A DNA stretch of 64,000 bases from Symmetrospora coprosmae. Taxonomy: Eukaryota > Basidiomycota > Cystobasidiomycetes > Symmetrosporaceae. Location: the NCBI GenBank assembly GCA_008802785.1, contig VUYT01000020.1, positions 248,001 through 312,000 of the forward strand. Reading direction: 5' to 3'. The stretch's first letter is position 1, and the number at the start of each line of letters is the position of its first letter. This document shows positions 10,755 to 24,201 of this stretch, in pieces. The translations under genes and the position numbers were made by a program. Below the pieces are notes generated by a model that had not been told where the DNA came from, did not search any database, and was given only the letters and a program-made list of their open reading frames with translations.

Positions 10755-14120
<3,366 letters not shown>

Positions 14121-14399: not shown

Positions 14400-15354
14400 A
14401 TGCTTACTGATAAGAGTGAGGGAAGTACGGCTTTCGACATCCGACCTGTCCGTTCCCTGGCAGATGCGCGTCTGCTCGGCTCAACCTTCGCAAGGGCGTT
14501 CAACCGCGACCCCTGGTACCGCTACGTAAGCTCCGAACAGCTAGGCTATTGCGGAGCTCCCAACGCCTCCACTATCTAAGTTTTCGCTTGCACTGTCTCA
14601 GCTTTATCTGCCCAACCTTCCGTTATCCGAGACGGGACAAGGCGGGACCGCTTCCCGACAGGATGGCGAGCCAACATCCCGGCAACGTGCGATAATTCAG
14701 GACGAAGCCGTCCGGGAGAGCCAGTCGTCCATGCAGAGCTTCATTCAGGATCCTCGCAACCATGCTTTCCTCGTTTATGACCGCGCGTCCGAGCAGGTTG
14801 CAGGCTTTTCGGCCTGGACCGCGCCGAGCGGCTCTCGGTATGCCCGCGACATTTCAGTCTGGACGCGCGTTCGCTTCAACATCAATCGATGGCTCGCCGC
14901 TCTCATCCCGAGCAGTATTGTCGGGCTTTGCGAGCGCCTCATCTACGGGGCCGAGCGCGCCCGAGCACGCCAAGCCGTCCGCGACCGCAAGCGGGCGTGG
15001 GCCGTCTTCGTTGAGGACGCCAATCGCCGCTTTATCCGGCCAGAGCATCGGCAGCAGGGCTACTGGCACCTGTCACTTCTGGGCGTGTTGCCTGAGTTCG
15101 GCAGACAAGGGTTTGCTCAGCGGCTTCTGGCCTGGGGCATGGAGCGTGCCGATGAAGAGGACGGGCCAATCTATCTGAGCGCAAGTGCGCAGGGACTCGG
15201 GGCCTATCAGAAGTCGGGATTTGTCGAGGTCGGAAGGGACATCTGCTATCCGGAAGACCCGCTCGGCGGCTGGCCGGAGATTGTGTGTATGAGGGAGCGC
15301 CTGAGTGAGAGGGCCGTAGCAAGCCCAGAGGGTCTTCAGAGCACTACTACGTAG
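14400..15354 (+). CDS. GNAT-family N-acetyltransferase
   Basis: Exons 14400-14525 and 14602-15354 encode 292 residues. GNAT enzymes move an acetyl group from acetyl-CoA to an amine; the substrate here is unknown. Seen: an N-terminal FDIRPVRSLADARLLGS strand-helix, and in the C-terminal half the acetyl-CoA loop LGVLPEFGRQGFAQRLL followed by GPIYLSASAQGLGAYQKSGF, the typical motif A and B arrangement with the Q/R-x-x-G-x-A type pyrophosphate loop. An upstream in-frame ATG at 14298 would add 34 unconserved residues and was not used. The gene follows CDC48 by 279 bp on the same strand. Confidence 0.82.
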
Positions 15355-15427: not shown

Positions 15428-15484
15428 CCCGGTCGCTCCGCCCGGACCGATGACGACATGTCCGATGCGACGGCTTTGTTTGGG
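15428..15484 (+). promoter_or_regulatory. Shared upstream boxes of MYND copy 1
   Basis: CCCGGTCGCTCCGC at 15428-15441 and GCGACGGCTTTGTTTGGG at 15467-15484, ending 80 bp before the ATG. The first box recurs upstream of copy 5 with one difference. The second recurs upstream of copy 4 with one difference and upstream of copy 5 with four. Function is inferred from position and conservation only. Confidence 0.5.
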
Positions 15485-15564: not shown

Positions 15565-16459
15565 ATGTTTTGTCAACCGGAGCTGCTAGACGAGGAGGTC
15601 GCCCTCTTCATCCGCATGGCGAAAGAGGACTTTAGCCCCGGTAAGTCATTCCAACAACGTCGAGCGCGAACGATCTGACCCATTGATCTATGTTTCTTCC
15701 CCGGATCAGGCGAGGCAAACAACCTCATCCTCAAGTACGACAACCTGCGCAAAGCGTACAAAGCTGGCGATATCCCGCTGGACGACCTCGCATTTCAGGA
15801 TCTCCTGTACTCAATCCGTTGTCGGAGCTGCAAGGACAGCACTGGACCTTCTGGATACGAGGGCTGGCTTCATGCGGCCGTCGTGCAGAACACCCTCGAC
15901 TGGTGCGGTCTCTCCAGGCGGGACCGAGAAGGCTTCAGCGAGTTTCTCGAGTCCGAGAGGAAGCGCTACCAGGAGCGATCTGCGGGCGATCCAAAGGGGA
16001 CTCAAGAGGCTTTCAAAACCATGGAATCCCGGAGAACAGACGACGATTTCCTCGGCTATCGGGCCAAGAAGATCATCAAGTCGCCCGAATACCTCGCTCT
16101 CTTCTGGAGCAAAATGAGCGTGAGTTTTGCGCGAGTTCGGGAGTCCAGCATGATTCGTGAACGTCAACGGTCGTAACTCCCGTAGTCCGGCTTCAAAGCC
16201 GACGCTCTTACGAAATCGCCGGCAAATGGATGTGAGAGATGCGGAAGCAAGAGCGACGTTGCCAAGCTCAAGCGCTGCACCAGGTCAGCGTTCTCACAAC
16301 TCTCATTACGTCCACTTGAGGCGGCTTATTCTGAACGGAAGCTGTATCTGCAGATGCAAGCGCGCTTTTTACTGCGACGAGCATTGCCAGCTGGCGGATT
16401 GGAAAGCCAAACACAAGGTCCAGTGCAAGTTCTTCGCCCTCCTACCGCCATCGAATTGA
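15565..16459 (+). CDS. MYND zinc-finger protein, tandem copy 1
   Basis: Exons 15565-15640, 15710-16119, 16186-16283 and 16354-16459 give 229 residues. The N-terminal 165 residues form a domain I do not recognise, starting MFCQPELLDEEV and containing STGPSGYEGWLHAA and TMESRRTDDDF. The C-terminus is a complete MYND finger (CERC, CTRC, YCDEHC, then HKVQC), a zinc fold that usually binds proline-rich partners. Intron phases are 1, 0 and 2, the last splitting the finger between the third and fourth Cys. The other four copies use the same positions. There is no SET domain, so it is not a Smyd-type methyltransferase. Function unknown. Confidence 0.8.
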
Positions 16460-16987
16460 ACTTCGAGACAGGGCTTCCGATTTGGTGCGTTACAGGTGCA
16501 CTAGTATGGAATAGCGAACCGCTAACGCATATTTCCACGTTGGACGGCAAGACTTGTAGAAGTCGGCCTTCGGTGTAGGCGGATGCAAACAGTGCGGAAG
16601 GAAGAGCGATTCCGACAAAGTCGAGCGTTGGACAAGAAGCTCTGCAGTGGACTTGCCAGCTTCCATTACATGCCCGTCCTCGTAGGATGTGGATCGTGCT
16701 TTTGTCTGTACGTAGGCCGAGATACGAGAAAGGGGAGGGACGTACGGCACCTGCAGGCGGCAATGCTTGCAGAGGGATGCTCTGGCGCACACCGCGTGTT
16801 GCCATGCGTGAAGGAGTCGCGCGACTGCTGCGCGAAGGGTGCCACAATTGGCCGGCCGGACTGACCCCTGGGGGCCTGTGTTTGGCGCTCCGAAACTCCG
16901 TGTCCGTCCTGACGTTCTCGTCTCCTGTCTCCTGGGCGCATCCTCCTTTCTTTCTGCCCAAGACGCAATCAGAAGCATTGACCGCTC
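16460..16987. other. Intergenic spacer between MYND copies 1 and 2
   Basis: The spacer is 528 bp with no supported gene. It holds the copy 2 promoter; a weaker relative of the shared box (CTGTGTTTGG) sits at about 16876-16885, some 102 bp before the ATG. Confidence 0.45.
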
Positions 16988-17910
16988 ATGTTCTACCAGC
17001 CAGAGCTTATCAGCGACGAGGTCAACTGCTTCAAGCAGCTCGTCAGAAGAAGACATGATGTCGGTCAGTGCGCGTCTGCTTCGTGCACGCCGTAGAGCGC
17101 GGCGATCGTGAGACCCGCGTATGATACTAAATAGGTCTTTGCACGCGACAGAGGCTGCCACAATCATCCGAAACCTCGATTCGCAGCTGGGAGGCTACGC
17201 TGCTCGACTTCTCAAGCTGGAGGATCTCAGCTTCCAGATTGTCATTATCCGGGTCCGAGCAGCAATCATGAGAGAGACCACGGGCCCCCGCGGCAAAGAA
17301 GGCCTCATCTTCGCTGCAGTACTGCAGCGCGCTCTCGACTGGGATACACTGTCCGAGAAGGACCGCGAGGCGTTCAGCAACTTCCTCGAGGCTGAAAGGC
17401 AGCGATACCAGGAGCGAGCCGATCCCGATCCGGCAAAGTGGGCGAATGCCTGGAACACAATGGAGTCTCGAAGTGCAGACGACGACTACATCCTGACTCG
17501 GGCAGAGAAGACCATCAAGTCGCCCGAGCACCGGGTATTTCTGATGAACAAGCTGTTCGTGAGTTGTGAAGGTCAGGTAGGTCAGAAGGCTCGCCATTCG
17601 CGGTAAGCTAACACTACTATGCGCAGTCGAACTTTTCGCAAGACGCAGCGTCTGTCGATCCTGGGCATGGTTGCGCGAAGTGCCACACCACCGCCGACGT
17701 GTCCAAGCTGAAGCGTTGCGGAAGGTGCTCAAGGATCTTCGGCCTTGTGGCTACCGGACTGATGTCACTGCTGATACACCTTTCTCTCTTCTTGAATTCA
17801 GCTGCAAGCGCGTCTTCTACTGCAGCAAAGAGTGCCAGGCAGCGGACTGGAAGGCGAAGCACAAGTACCTTTGCAAGGTCATCGCTGAAGTGCCAAAGGA
17901 TGCCAAGTAA
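16988..17910 (+). CDS. MYND zinc-finger protein, tandem copy 2
   Basis: Exons 16988-17063, 17152-17558, 17627-17724 and 17802-17910 give 229 residues. It starts MFYQPELISDEVNCF and keeps the family blocks RETTGPRGKEGLIFAA, LDWDTLSEKDREAFSNFLE and TMESRSADDDYILTRAEKTI. The MYND finger is intact: CAKC, CGRC, YCSKEC and HKYLC. Exon 1 is 76 nt in every copy and intron phases are the same as in copy 1. Function unknown; the intact finger and clean frame suggest that it is expressed. Confidence 0.82.
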
Positions 17911-18336
17911 ATTGCGCAAGTGGCGAGCTGTGCTCCGCGGTGGACGTCGCGTCACAGCGAGGGCAGCGTGTGCACAGGCGGTGTGGACGGCTGAAGACAG
18001 CGCTGACCTCCAGCTGGAGCGGCGCTTTCCATGGTAGAATATCGATTGGCAGCCATTCGACGGAGGGCTCGCGCTCGTGTTCTGCACACGTCGGCAAAGC
18101 CTATCATTTTTTTTGGTTGCCGAACTCGGCAGGGGCGTGTTGTCCTGAATCTCCGCTTTCGGACGAGACCCTTTCTCCGATCGCGTCCTCCATTCCTTTC
18201 CAGTCCATGTTCCTGGTTGTTTTGCCTTTCTTCCTCGTCCTGATCTCTCCTCGCCTCGCCTTCGTGCCAATCCCCTTCACTCTGCTTCCTCCGCCCTTCC
18301 TATGCAATACCTGCAGGTTCCGCAGCTCGCAAAGCC
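17911..18336. other. Intergenic spacer between MYND copies 2 and 3
   Basis: The spacer is 426 bp, with no gene seen. A T-run followed by TTGG at about 18107-18116 is the nearest thing to the shared upstream box, but it lies about 220 bp from the ATG and is not convincing. Confidence 0.4.
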
Positions 18337-19189
18337 ATGTTCTATCAAGCCGAGCTTCTGGACGAAGAACTGAGCATTTACAGGCGTGCTGCCACGCAAC
18401 TATACGGCAATGGTGAGGATGCTTCGCCCGGTGTGACCCTACCTGGTCTTTTTGACATGCTGTTTCGCGTATCCTACTAGTCACAGCAAGTCGGCTAGTT
18501 CGTATCGCGGAGAAGGGACTAGAGCCGTATAAAGCTGGAAAGCTCAAGCTGCAGGACGATCGTGTCCAGAGTCTCATCAGGACCGTCCGCGTCATTAACC
18601 GCAAGGAGGGGTTTGGACCTCCCGGATATGCAGGCTGGATACATGCTGCCTCAATGCAGGATCTGCTGGGCTGGAAGAACCTCACAGTAGCGGACCGAGA
18701 AGCTTTCAGCGAGTACATCGAAGCGGAGAGGACTTGCCTCCAGACCATGTCGGATCCAGATCCCGAGCAAGCGCTCCAGGCACTGGATCTCAACCCGGAG
18801 CACAATGATCCGGTCTACCGTGCCGCTAGGCACATCAAGTCACCTGCGCATTTGCAATTGTTTTACGAAAAGTCAGCGGTAGGTAGTCAAAGTACTGCAC
18901 GCGCGAGGATTACAGCCGACGCCGAAATCCTGACCTCCAGGCGTCTCTGCACGCCCAGGGAAGGTCCCGAGAAGCCGGTTGCGAGTGGTGCAGAGATCGG
19001 AGCAATGTCGCAAGGCATCAGGTCAGCACGGCTAGGGGTGTGCGATCAGCTCGCCAGTACTAAATCTTCGGGCTTTCACGTAGGTGCAAGCACGTCTACT
19101 ACTGCAATGAGGAATGTCAGACGTCAGAATGGACGGCAAAGCACAAGCACATCTGCAAGCTCCTCGCTGCTCTCAACGTCTCACGTTAA
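18337..19189 (+). CDS. MYND-family tandem copy 3 with damaged zinc finger
   Basis: Exons 1 and 2 (18337-18412, 18481-18878) are intact, 158 codons, starting MFYQAELLDEELSIY and including GPPGYAGWIHAASMQDLLGW. The 3' part is degenerate. Exon 3 (about 18941-19021) carries GCEWCRDRSNVARHQ, where the other copies have about 11 more nucleotides encoding Leu-Lys-Arg-Cys. The usual acceptor at 19083 then throws the finger out of frame. A non-standard AAG acceptor at 19090 restores a frame (19091-19189, HVYYCNEECQTSEW to HKHIC) but omits the middle Cys pair. Either way, a normal eight-ligand MYND fold cannot form. It is the most divergent copy, probably decaying or reduced to the N-terminal domain. 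Confidence 0.6.
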
Positions 19190-19490
19190 GAGCCTAGACT
19201 TTAGCCTACAGGAGGAGCGTAATCTGCTAGATAGCGCGGGCTGTCGGTACTGCCCAGATATTATGTCACGGTCCCACTCCCAGAACAGCAGAGCAGAGCA
19301 GCCTGACGATCTATCGCTTTCGGGCCGTTCCAAACGCGAAGCACCGTGGCAAGGGGAAATTGACGCGACGCCTTTGTTTGGGCGCGAGGTCGAGATCCGC
19401 ACCCGCGCGTCTTGACCTCCGCGTTCCGACGTCCGCCCTCCTCTCCTTTTCTCCTTATGCACCCTCATAGACGCAAAGGAGCAGAGGAAG
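19190..19490. promoter_or_regulatory. MYND copy 4 promoter region with shared box
   Basis: It contains GCGACGCCTTTGTTTGGG at 19365-19382, 108 bp before the copy 4 ATG. It matches the box upstream of copy 1 at 17 of 18 positions. No gene seen in this interval. Confidence 0.5.
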
Positions 19491-20411
19491 ATGTTCCAAC
19501 AACCCGAACTCAGGCACGATGAGGTAGCTTTCTACAAGCATATCATCACCGAGAGGCACGGTCTGGGTGAGCCTGTCGATGATTCAGAGTACACGCGCAC
19601 GAGCCTCGCATGACGCGGCTGACACGGAACTGCCGTCTCTTACCGATGCTGATTCGAGGAGCTGAGGCGTCGCAGATCAAGCGGAATCTCGAGAAGGAAC
19701 TGAATCGCTACTCAACCGGCTTCGCACGCCTGGAGGACCTCAGCTATCAGACGGTAATCATCCGAGTCCGGGCGTTCCTCACCCGCGAATCGACTGGCCC
19801 TCCCGGCTACGAAGGCTTCTACTTCGTCGCATGCTTGCAGCGTGCTCTGCAGTGGGAGACGTTGGCCGAGAGCGACCGCAAGGCTTTTACACATTTCCTC
19901 GAGACAGAGCAGCAGCGATACCGGGCCAAGGCTGCTGGAGATCCGTCGGGATACAGACAGAAGATGATGGACGTAACGACGCGGCCCAGCGACGATGACT
20001 ACATCATTGATCGAGCATCGAAGACCATACCAACGCCGGAGCTGATGTCGCTCTTCGTGGACAGGCTAGCGGTCAGTTTGAGGCGCGCCTATTAACGGTG
20101 GGGCATCTTGAACGACATCCCTGCAGGCTGACGCCGCCACTCAAGCTCGACTCGATGCTACAAGACCCTTCTGCCATTTCTGCGGCAAGGAGGACAACCT
20201 GTCTGCTCTCAAGCGGTGCTCAAAGTACGTGCCTCATTGGAAAACTTACCTTCACGAGAATCATTGTGCCAAGTCGCTAAATCTCCTCCGGGCTGCTCCC
20301 AGATGCCAAAGCGTGTTCTACTGCAATCGGGAGTGTCAGGCCGGGCACTGGAAGGTGGCCCACAAGTACGCTTGCATGTTCATGGCAGCTACGAAGGGAG
20401 GCTCTCCGTAG
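19491..20411 (+). CDS. MYND zinc-finger protein, tandem copy 4
   Basis: Exons 19491-19566, 19662-20071, 20127-20224 and 20303-20411 give 230 residues. It starts MFQQPELRHDEVAFY, keeps RESTGPPGYEGFYFVACLQ, LAESDRKAFTHFLE and RPSDDDYIIDRASKTI, and ends in a complete MYND finger (CHFC, CSKC, YCNREC, HKYAC). It is closest to copy 5: both share the AEASQIK/AEATKIK start of exon 2 and the EGFYF block, so these two probably arose from the latest duplication. Function unknown. Confidence 0.82.
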
Positions 20412-20778
20412 TGATCTACGCGACTCTGTGTCATGTGTGTCGCACCCTGCGCAAATACTGGTTAGGCGTGCCAGATCTTCTGGACAGACATGCTAGAGAA
20501 AGAAGATCAGGCTGTCAACGCGAAAGAGCGCCCACCTCGGCTGCCAGTGACGCAACGAACGCACCGTCTGGGCATCAAGTGGGATGATGTCAGAGCTATG
20601 CCGGCCGGACCTACCGCGTAGCAACACCCGGTCGATCCGCGACGCGGAAGACGCGGACGCGACCAATTTATTTGGGTGCTCGAGTCACCGTTGCTACTGC
20701 TCAGGATGGACTCCCGACGTCGCCTTGTCCTCCTTCTTGCAAGTCGTCCGACACCTGCAAATTTCGACATTGGCGACC
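20412..20778. promoter_or_regulatory. MYND copy 5 promoter region with shared boxes
   Basis: CCCGGTCGATCCGC at 20627-20640 matches the first box of copy 1 at 13 of 14 positions. GCGACCAATTTATTTGGG at 20659-20676 is a diverged version of the second box, 102 bp before the ATG. No gene seen. Confidence 0.5.
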
Positions 20779-21742
20779 ATGTTCTACCAACCTGAGCTGC
20801 TGGAAGAAGAGGTGACCTGCTACAAGCGTATCATCACGAAGACGCACGGATTCGGTGCGTCCCCCTTACTTCCGACGCAGTGTGCCGTGCTCGACATCTT
20901 TTCTCACGTCGCTGTTCCTGCCCATCAAACGTCACGTCGCCAGCGGAAGCCACGAAGATCAAGCAGACCCTCGATAAACACCTCAATCGATATGCGGCAG
21001 GCGAGACGCAGATCGAGCACCTCGAAGTGCAAACGATCATCATCCAGGTCCGCGCACGGCTTGTCCGCGAGACCACGGGACCGAAGGGTCTGGAAGGCTT
21101 CTACTTTACAGCCATGCTGCAGCACGTCCTGGACTGGAATACGCTCGCCGAGGACGATCGCGAGGGCTTCAGCTACTTTCTGGAGTCGGAGGAAACAGAG
21201 ACATTGCGCCGGATCCGACAAGGACGCTATGCAACACAGGCAGAGCTTCCAGACGATGGAATCGCGCCGATCTGACAACGACTACATGGTCGTCCGAGCG
21301 TACAAGACCATCCCTTCGGCTGAGCTGAGGCAGCTCTTCACGCACAAACTCAAGGTCAGCGCGCCATTCTCATACAGTCACTTAAGACGGATTGCTCAAG
21401 GTGCACATGCTGATGTATTCTTTCTGATCTGGCTTCATGACAGTCGGCCGGAGCTGCCAGCATAGCCGAAGCAGGGCGAGAGCAGGGCTGCAGCCACTGC
21501 GGGGACATGGCCAACTATGCAAACCTCAAGACGTGCGCCGGGTAAGCGAAATCCGCTTCCGCAGTGTAGTAATCTCCACGCTAAAACGTAGCGCTTCGAT
21601 TTCCGACAGGTGCAAGACCGCCTTCTACTGCAACGTCAAGTGCCAGTCGGCAGACTGGAAGGCAAAGCACAAACAGATCTGCAGGTACGCTGCGCGAGCC
21701 AAACTGGCGTTGGTCGGCGGACACGGCAGTGCTCTTGCGTGA
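20779..21742 (+). pseudogene. MYND-family tandem copy 5 with one frameshift
   Basis: Exons correspond to 20779-20854, 20944-21354, 21444-21541 and 21610-21742, with the same intron phases as the others. Exon 2 is one nucleotide too long: after the FSYFLESE block (about 21190) an extra G moves the reading frame, and the rest of the conserved domain (QTMESRRSDNDYMVVRAYKT) continues in the next frame. Residue spacing to the other copies is exact if this one base is ignored. The MYND finger (CSHC, CAGC, YCNVKC, HKQIC) is fully preserved, with a short Ala/Gly-rich tail. The loss is therefore recent, or an assembly error in a GGAGGAAA run. No intron could absorb the shift. Confidence 0.65.
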
Positions 21743-21843: not shown

Positions 21844-24201
21844 TCAGCGGATAGTGCTAGGTCTCTCTGCTCTGGCAACATGGGTCTCTGCTCCTCCTCG
21901 TCCCTTCGCGCGATTGCCGATAAAGTCCGGTACCTCCCATACCCGCAGTACCTCCTCCAGTCCACCTGTAACTAGCGTCTGTCCGTCATTCGAGAGCGCT
22001 GCATGTCTGATGCTCCGAGCGTGTCCGTCGAGCTGCGCGATCTGTCTCATGCTCGGATACGAAAAGAAGACGATCGGATGCGACGGGGCAGGAGTCGCTC
22101 TCGATGAGCCTGAGACCGGGCTACCAGGGTCTACATTACTACGAGGTGGAGATACTCCGTCTGCTCGTGCAGGGGCTGAGTTGTAGCTTGCGAGATCTTC
22201 AGGTGATGTGCACGCGATGAGTACGGGCGAGCTGCGGGCAAGAGCAGACAAATGAGTCAAAGGGAGGCCAGATTTACGTGGCAGGTGACGATGCGCACTC
22301 TCTCGCCCAGAGGAGCCTGTCGATGCGCGTTGGCGACGTATCGAGGTATTCCACCTGCGCCGCCCGAGACAGCTTCTCGAGCTTGAGGAAGCCAGTACAC
22401 TCTGGTACGCCTCCAGCGCTCATGCTCATTCCTCTTCCGTGCGCGGTGCTGGACTGCGTTGTCGGTCCGGTGAAGGCCAGCAGACCGCTAGCGCTTGGCG
22501 ACCAGGCGAGCGAGCGGATTTCGGCAAAGCGCGTCCGTTGCGATACAACCGGACGATCGCCCTTGCGAATGTCCCAGATCCTCACGAGACCGGTGTCACT
22601 GCCAGCAGCGAGCTGAATACCGTTCGAGCACGGGTCCCACTCCACAACGCTCAGGCCGCCCGCACCTCGCCTGGCTTCCTGGCCAGGACATCCGCTCCAG
22701 GATGCTGGTTCGGCAATGAGCCTGGTGTCTGTTGGACATCGTATATCGGAGATGAGGAGATGGCCGCTACTGAAAGCGCTTGCTAGCAGATCGGTTCCGG
22801 ACCAGCTGAGCGAGGAGACGTGAAAGCGAGACGTGCTTGGCGGGTGTGGGCGGAGGTGGACCCCGCACGCACCCTTGCCCATGTCGAAGAGCGAGACGAC
22901 GCCTGCCTTTGAGCCTGTCGCAATCTGAAGTGTGCGCCGGCATGACGTTGGCACAGGCTTGCACCACCGTAGGTCCGGAGAAGTGGCAACGACCTACCTC
23001 GCTACCTCCGGCGCGCCAGGAGATGGCCGTCAGCATTGCATCAGAGCCGCTGGCGGGGACATGGCACGCTGGTCTGATAGTTTCGACGGCCTGACTTTGC
23101 GGGTCCCACGTGTGGAAGGCGCCCCCGGGGCTGGACAGAAGCGTTGCTAGAAGAGGTCGTGCAGCACCAGACGGCGTCGACCACGAAAGCGAGTTGATGG
23201 TGTGGATGCGCTAATAAGGGGAAGCAAGGTGGAGAGGTCAGCTCGCATGACGGCGCAGCTGACGGGAGGTATCACTTACGCTAAGACCCCGCGCGTTCAA
23301 AGCGACGATGGCGAGCTTCGAGTAGCTGCCGCTTTTTCTGCGTGCGATCAGACCATCCACCGGACTCTTGAACTGTTCTAGCAGATCCAGTGTACCGCTG
23401 ATGTCACGTTGAGCCTCTGAGTTGGACCCGATGGGCAGTGATCTCCCGCAGAACGCCTTGATATGCTGTGCAGCCTTCCATGCGTGTGATTCAGGCAGGA
23501 GGTACGGCTTCGCACTGAAGAGCATGGCAGATGCTTGGCGTGTGGCGTGCTGCACATAGGCGCAGCTGCGAAGAGTAGGAAGGAACACAGAGGATAGTGC
23601 TGTCCTGTATGGGCCATCTGTGCGTACGATTGCGTGTCAGCTGAGACAGGAGCAGCGGGAGATGGAGGGAAAGGCAGATGATTGTAGAGAGAACGATCGA
23701 ATGCTACCGGGAGGAATGGAATACAAGGACAGGAGGAGAGGGAAAGAGGAGAAGAGGAGAAGGAGAAGAGGAGAAGGAGAAGGAGAAGAGGAGGAAGGCA
23801 GGGAGATGGAAGGTGGGACGGCAGGTCGAGCGTACCTGAGGTAGGCGAGGGAAGAAACCGGCTCCTCATAATCACTCTCTCGCTGTCCCTCTTCCGGGCC
23901 GGTATAGGTGCATCGTTGTCGTTCTCGTCGCCCTCAAAGGTGTGATCCAGGCTTCGCAGCTTGTCTCGGTATGTCAGGCTCGCCCGCGGACTGTTGGCCG
24001 GCGTACGAGCAGAGGAAGGGAAGAGCAGGCCCGCATCGGGAGAACGTCGCACTGGGATGAATCTGAGCAAAGCAGAGAGTAGAGAGGCAATGAATCAGGC
24101 ACCGTCAATTCACTCGCTAGAACTGAAGGGCTGAACGCGTCTCACCTATCATATTGCTGTCGAACGAGATATGTCCGTGTTTCGTGCCTGACGGGTGGCA
24201 T
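21844..24201 (-). CDS. Divergent Cdc20/Fizzy-family APC/C activator (Ama1-like)
   Basis: Exons 24201-24146, 24062-23836, 23617-23280, 23210-22998, 22924-22278 and 22231-21844 join in phase to 622 residues. Fizzy proteins recruit substrates to, and activate, the anaphase-promoting complex. Diagnostic marks: a C-box DRFIPVR at residues 18-24, created exactly across intron 1; a WD40 propeller with SLSWSTPSG, IATGSKAGVVSLFDMGKG, LSVVEWDP and DTGLVRIWDIRKGD; the last blade SYPSMRQIAQLDGHARSIRH with DGQTLVTGGLEEVLRVWEV; and a C-terminal Ile-Arg tail. The propeller is more diverged than Cdc20 or Cdh1, which favours an Ama1/Mfr1-type meiotic or specialised activator, but I cannot separate these by eye. 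It is convergent with MYND copy 5, 101 bp apart. Confidence 0.85.
23731..23798. repeat. Pure polypurine/polypyrimidine tract in an intron
   Basis: Sixty-eight consecutive purines on the plus strand, mostly GGAGAA/GGAGAAG units, lie inside intron 2 of the Fizzy-family gene. On the coding strand this is a long pyrimidine tract ahead of the exon 3 acceptor, though 110 bp upstream of it. Confidence 0.85.

Follow-up and report, generated by a model that had tools for sequence, protein, structure and literature searches.

Organization of the MYND-finger gene array

The window analysed here, a stretch of 64,000 nucleotides (nt) of Symmetrospora coprosmae DNA (contig C12, positions 248001-312000; the genome searched comprised 20.05 Mb in 77 contigs), contains five genes for proteins with a MYND finger, arranged head to tail on the forward strand between positions 15565 and 21742 and having four exons each (Table 1). 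The array is real and had been spotted correctly in a first-pass annotation of the window, with one error over copy 5. As that annotation had stated, exon 1 measures 76 nt and begins with MF-x-Q in all five copies. The modelled introns, of 55-92 nt, lie at matching sites and have GT-AG borders in 15 of 15 cases, the donor of intron 3 in copy 2 (GTGCTC) being weak-looking. The intron phases 1, 0 and 2, described as shared by all five genes, were confirmed in copies 1, 2 and 4.

Exon 2 encodes a domain of 132-137 residues and has 410, 407, 398, 413 and 411 nt in copies 1 to 5, respectively, the first four lengths all being 2 modulo 3. When tblastn was run on the window, each exon-2 domain of copies 1-4 matched all other copies among the exon-2 matches listed, with expect values (E) of 8e-13 to 2e-42 for the longest pieces, so the likeness among the copies is not due to chance. 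The motif TMESRxxD[DN]D[YF], reported earlier for three copies, was found in copies 1, 2 and 5. Exon 3 has 98 nt in four of the five copies and 81 nt in copy 3, and exon 4 encodes the second half of the MYND finger. Intron 3 splits the finger between its third and fourth Cys, where the gene models and the earlier description agree.

Table 1. Positions in the window of the array genes, the exon-3 relic, the upstream element and the neighbouring genes (aa, amino acids).
Feature	Position	Strand	Exons	Remarks
CDC48 gene	~11767-14120			extent by eye
GNAT acetyltransferase gene	14731-15354			
Element GAYGCGAC-N7-TTTGG	15464-15483	+		101 nt before copy 1 ATG
Copy 1	15565-16459	+	15565-15640, 15710-16119, 16186-16283, 16354-16459	229 aa; open through MYND finger
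Exon-3 relic	16560-16640	+		first half of MYND finger, between copies 1 and 2; GCKQCGRKSDSDKVERWT
Copy 2	16988-17910	+	16988-17063, 17152-17558, 17627-17724, 17802-17910	229 aa; open through MYND finger
Copy 3	18337-19189	+	18337-18412, 18481-18878, 18941-19021	exon-4 finger codons 19084-19189 out of frame
Element GAYGCGAC-N7-TTTGG	19362-19381	+		129 nt before copy 4 ATG
Copy 4	19491-20411	+	19491-19566, 19659-20071, 20127-20224, 20303-20411	231 aa; open through MYND finger
Element GAYGCGAC-N7-TTTGG	20656-20675	+		123 nt before copy 5 ATG
Copy 5	20779-21742	+	20779-20854, 20944-21354, 21444-21541, 21610-21742	frame break within exon 2
WD40-like frames	21844-22954	-		downstream of array

MYND finger

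The identity of the finger was borne out in the three open copies, since zf-MYND (PF01753) scored 39.2, 44.8 and 41.4 bits in copies 1, 2 and 4, respectively, against a Pfam cut-off of 22.7 bits, and was the sole Pfam match passing its cut-off. For copy 3, whose translation was scanned as far as exon 3 runs, Pfam gave no zf-MYND match; in a six-frame search of the genome, the exon-4 codons alone exceeded the same cut-off in copies 3 (31.5 bits) and 5 (35.9 bits). All zinc ligands are present in copies 1, 2 and 4, and in copy 5 they are present as codons. The best match among PDB sequences was SMYD2 (E 4.2e-7), in the finger region.

In the MYND fingers of BS69, ETO and DEAF-1, a Tyr, a Gln and a Trp form the peptide groove (PMC4742278, PMC3555993). 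These three residues are coded in exon 4 at equal spacing in all five copies of the array, those of copies 3 and 5 being codons past the break. The residue after the third Cys is described as mattering for corepressor binding, being Thr in DEAF-1 (T516) and Ser in ETO, yet BS69, which has neither residue there, binds PXLXP (PMC4742278, PMC3555993). In the array, this position, which adjoins intron 3, is T in copy 1, G in copy 2, S in copy 4 and A in copy 5, and is lost in copy 3.

The array finger is like those of SMYD2, DEAF-1, ETO/CBFA2T1 and BS69/ZMYND11 in its zinc-ligand pattern and in the Tyr-Gln-Trp groove residues. It differs from them in its C-terminal position, in the intron that separates Cys 3 from Cys 4 and in its attachment to a helical domain without a match. 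To our knowledge, the other partner domains of these four proteins do not occur in the array proteins. For the SET domain of the SMYD methyltransferases, no Pfam match was found in the array proteins, and the SMYD matches in PDB cover the finger region only.

N-terminal domain

The domain encoded by exon 2 had been reported as unrecognised, and nothing convincing emerged from a wider set of searches. The best E was 0.11 against Pfam and 0.17 against PHROGs (each for one of four members), 0.39 against PDB sequences and, with the full-length proteins, 0.022 against NCBIfam (one of four). AlphaFold models led by copy 2 (predicted local distance difference test, pLDDT, 73.5; predicted template modelling score, pTM, 0.64) and by copy 4 (pLDDT 68.7, pTM 0.56) both show seven helices in identical order. 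With these models, Foldseek returned no match at E 0.001 or better, the lowest values in PDB being E 0.84 and 1.6 and that in BFVD E 0.50. Because the underlying alignments held six rows, two of them partial, the absent fold match is weak evidence for a new fold. A description of the domain was not found in the open-licence literature on MYND in fungi. A pattern search of viral and prokaryotic contig collections gave 82 and 38 matches with no confirmed relative, which says little, as a fungal domain is not expected there.

Confinement to one locus and other MYND genes

When the genome was searched with the exon-2 domain of copy 2 and with that of copy 1, six and seven matches were obtained, respectively, all within the array except one on contig C74. 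The latter was rejected as a second locus, being at chance level (E 0.118 over 39 residues; E 0.002 in a small local tblastn), with its surroundings read as raw frames. The proposal of a local array was accordingly upheld at the scale of the genome. The six-frame search located at least 17 zf-MYND places, five of which are this array. Since other MYND groups are present on contigs C11 and C5 while the exon-2 domain was found here alone, the array is one among several small MYND families of the genome.

Four tandem MYND genes lie at C11:931585-936538, all four starting with MSLPx[TS]G and having an N-terminal half different from that of the array. Two of them each occupy one open frame (354 and 368 aa), and the frames of the other two are interrupted by stops, either introns or breaks. 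A pair of tandem MYND genes is also found at C5:345333-346963. This pair belongs to a third group, with members on C9 and C16, in which a His stands in place of the sixth zinc-ligand Cys, giving YCxxxHQKxDW or a close form in the four members seen. The C11 and C5 arrays resemble the present one in having tandem genes with an N-terminal half and a MYND finger in the C-terminal half; their fingers, however, are contained in one exon.

A kinship between the N-terminal domain and the C11 family was considered and rejected. Profile comparison of the array with C11 (three of its four genes, the third ended at its first stop) gave one match of 35 columns with a probability of 21.9% and E 0.00098, on the tail of the C11 finger, and a weak tblastn match (E 0.005-0.006) likewise falls on or after that finger. 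A tree of 16 fingers was set aside because of low support over about 50 columns; in it, a long branch places a finger from C55 with copy 5.

Broken copies, age and selection

The reading frame reaches the finger only in copies 1, 2 and 4. In copy 3, the decay noted earlier is evident: exon 3 is shorter by 17 nt, the third Cys is gone and the frame is left before exon 4, so that the finger is broken, while the finger codons of exon 4 are still clean. Alternative splicing was considered by eye; the third Cys is lost whichever later acceptor is used. Copy 5 had been taken as retaining an intact finger gene, which was the error mentioned above; because the length of its exon 2 differs modulo 3, the frame closes early, stopping after 135 residues and ahead of the finger, whose codons beyond the break are clean.

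Between copies 1 and 2 lies a relic of exon 3, in which the third Cys has become Trp and which is preceded by TAG; no other exon was recognised nearby. It scores 57 against copy 1, compared with 44 for the best of 300 mononucleotide shuffles, which preserve base content only, and 28 for the antisense strand. Three other intergenic stretches tested for relics gave nothing above their own shuffles. The birth-and-death appearance first suggested by broken copies beside open ones is strengthened by this relic. The breaks in copies 3 and 5 look younger than the array, because exon 4 of both copies is still clean.

Exon-2 identity among copies 1-4 is 33-50%. In this comparison, the proportion of differing synonymous sites (pS) is 0.59-0.74 and the Jukes-Cantor synonymous distance (dS) 1.17-3.32. 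Because synonymous sites are near saturation, the array is old and not a fresh burst. The ratio of nonsynonymous to synonymous proportions (pN/pS) is below 1 in all six pairs of copies 1-4, at 0.54-0.66, and no upper bootstrap bound exceeds 0.81. In every pair, the third codon position is the most divergent. These values are a signature of purifying selection and indicate that the whole array, with copy 3, was under constraint.

An assembly error could instead account for the break in copy 5 and perhaps for that in copy 3, in which case more than three genes would be intact. In line with this, exons 3 and 4 of copy 5 code cleanly, keep the finger codons and are joined to introns with GT-AG borders. 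Copy 3, however, differs by 17 nt, which is not a typical single-base error, and its exon-2 domain is on average the most diverged (33-39% identity to copies 1, 2 and 4). An assembly error is considered unlikely.

Upstream element and neighbouring genes

The best 20-mer common to the five upstream regions scores 57, compared with 46-52 in 12 shuffles. The element GAYGCGAC-N7-TTTGG precedes copies 1, 4 and 5, while only 13 of the 20 positions agree in copy 2 and 10 in copy 3. Genome-wide it has nine exact places (one for the reversed control), three of which are the array promoters. Another lies 5' of a C5 MYND gene (C5:345744), which belongs to another MYND group, and the remaining five are elsewhere, some within open frames. 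The place at C11:1462423, beside an unrelated gene, is identical to that of copy 4 in all 20 letters. With one mismatch allowed, 68 places were found, compared with 28 for the reversed control, and the element is absent from all four C11 MYND genes. The element was rejected as a hallmark of the array and may be a general promoter element; part of it resembles an HMG-box site on the opposite strand.

The array lies 3' of a CDC48 gene, a 232-residue piece of which matches Cdc48/p97 chains in PDB (E 6.5e-82 or weaker), and of a gene for a GNAT acetyltransferase. Two frames downstream of the array resemble, by eye, a WD40-repeat protein.

Proposed function of the array proteins

Here it is proposed, with about even confidence, that the array encodes an old, locally confined family of intracellular adaptor proteins of about 230 residues, whose finger would dock a peptide and whose helical half would bind a second partner. 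This pairing of a putative docking module with what may be another binding surface is why the proteins are best read as adaptors. The finger would fold round two zinc ions and take up, from a partner protein, a short peptide that contains proline and is PXLXP-like, and the N-terminal domain would bind a second partner or itself, so that the protein could bridge two partners. The target may vary from copy to copy with the N-terminal domain and with the variable residue directly following the third Cys. Unequal crossing-over would have added copies to the array, and frame breaks would have removed them. Homology and the conserved groove residues suggest the docking role of the finger, whereas the N-terminal half as a binding surface is weakly suggested by the absence of any enzyme match.

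Several points weigh against this proposal. Thr or Ser after the third Cys is absent in copies 2 and 5, and their peptide preference may therefore differ. The pN/pS ratios are not very low and are a rough measure given the near-saturated synonymous sites, and part of the constraint could predate the present function. With models of moderate confidence and no fold match, the role assigned to the N-terminal half is a guess.

Two special cases of the adaptor proposal are not separable here. In the first, the proteins would be transcriptional co-regulators, the finger recruiting a corepressor-like partner and the helical half binding a DNA-bound factor or chromatin. Corepressor peptides are among the known MYND ligands (PMC4742278, PMC3555993), and in the accessible part of a study of Ganoderma, 50 Zf-MYND genes are listed as transcription factors, and a difference between stages is given for 13 of these; this listing, however, was apparently made by domain family, without a binding test (PMC9386254). 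No DNA-binding domain was found in the Pfam searches of the array proteins, and this case is held to be rather improbable.

In the second, which is regarded as quite unlikely, the proteins would be substrate adaptors of a ubiquitin ligase, one half holding the ligase and the other the substrate, in a family diversifying with its substrates. Fungi have MYND proteins of such kind: yeast Mub1 is an adaptor for Ubr2 and Rpn4. The position of the array 3' of the CDC48 and GNAT genes would also agree, neighbourhood being weak evidence in fungi. Against it, no PDB match below E 1 is clear of the finger region, and nothing outside the finger passed the cut-off in the Pfam scan. Like the array proteins, Mub1/SamB/Fuz1 is a fungal protein with a MYND finger; proteins of the Mub1 type, however, are large and single copy. 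Also against this case, a separate and larger open frame of 939 aa on contig C34 is presumably the Mub1/SamB/Fuz1 gene of this genome.

That the array is decaying and has little present function, with two of five copies and the relic broken and the others on their way, is likewise regarded as quite unlikely. The frame breaks in copies 3 and 5, the exon-3 relic and the moderate pN/pS would fit such decay, but in three copies the frame is open and the splice sites and all zinc ligands are preserved even though synonymous divergence is near saturation, and neutral decay over such time should have broken them. Least probable of all is a reading in which exon 2 encodes a hitherto undescribed helical domain for protein recognition and the array is a recognition locus with fast turnover. 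Each copy would link a different target, selected by its helical half, to a common effector on the MYND finger; if true, it could serve, for example, in self/nonself recognition or the control of foreign proteins, and turnover would follow the changing targets.

Variation in MYND number among basidiomycetes is already in print. Counts of zf-MYND were 26 in R. glutinis, 11 in S. roseus, 2 in U. maydis and on average 41 in seven Agaricomycetes (PMC4469406), and a mean of 24.7 (standard deviation 15.1) was given for Rhodotorula strains (PMC10662464). The accessible parts of both papers give counts only, describing neither this N-terminal domain nor this array (PMC4469406, PMC10662464). What is added here is a MYND family that carries an orphan domain and is restricted to a single locus of the genome. 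In basidiomycete yeasts, MYND numbers vary widely and, as far as the accessible parts of these papers go, are reported as counts without function (PMC4469406, PMC10662464). At about 6 kb, this one compact locus, in which three members are open, two carry breaks that look recent and the orphan domain is defined, is a deletable unit for asking what such families do.

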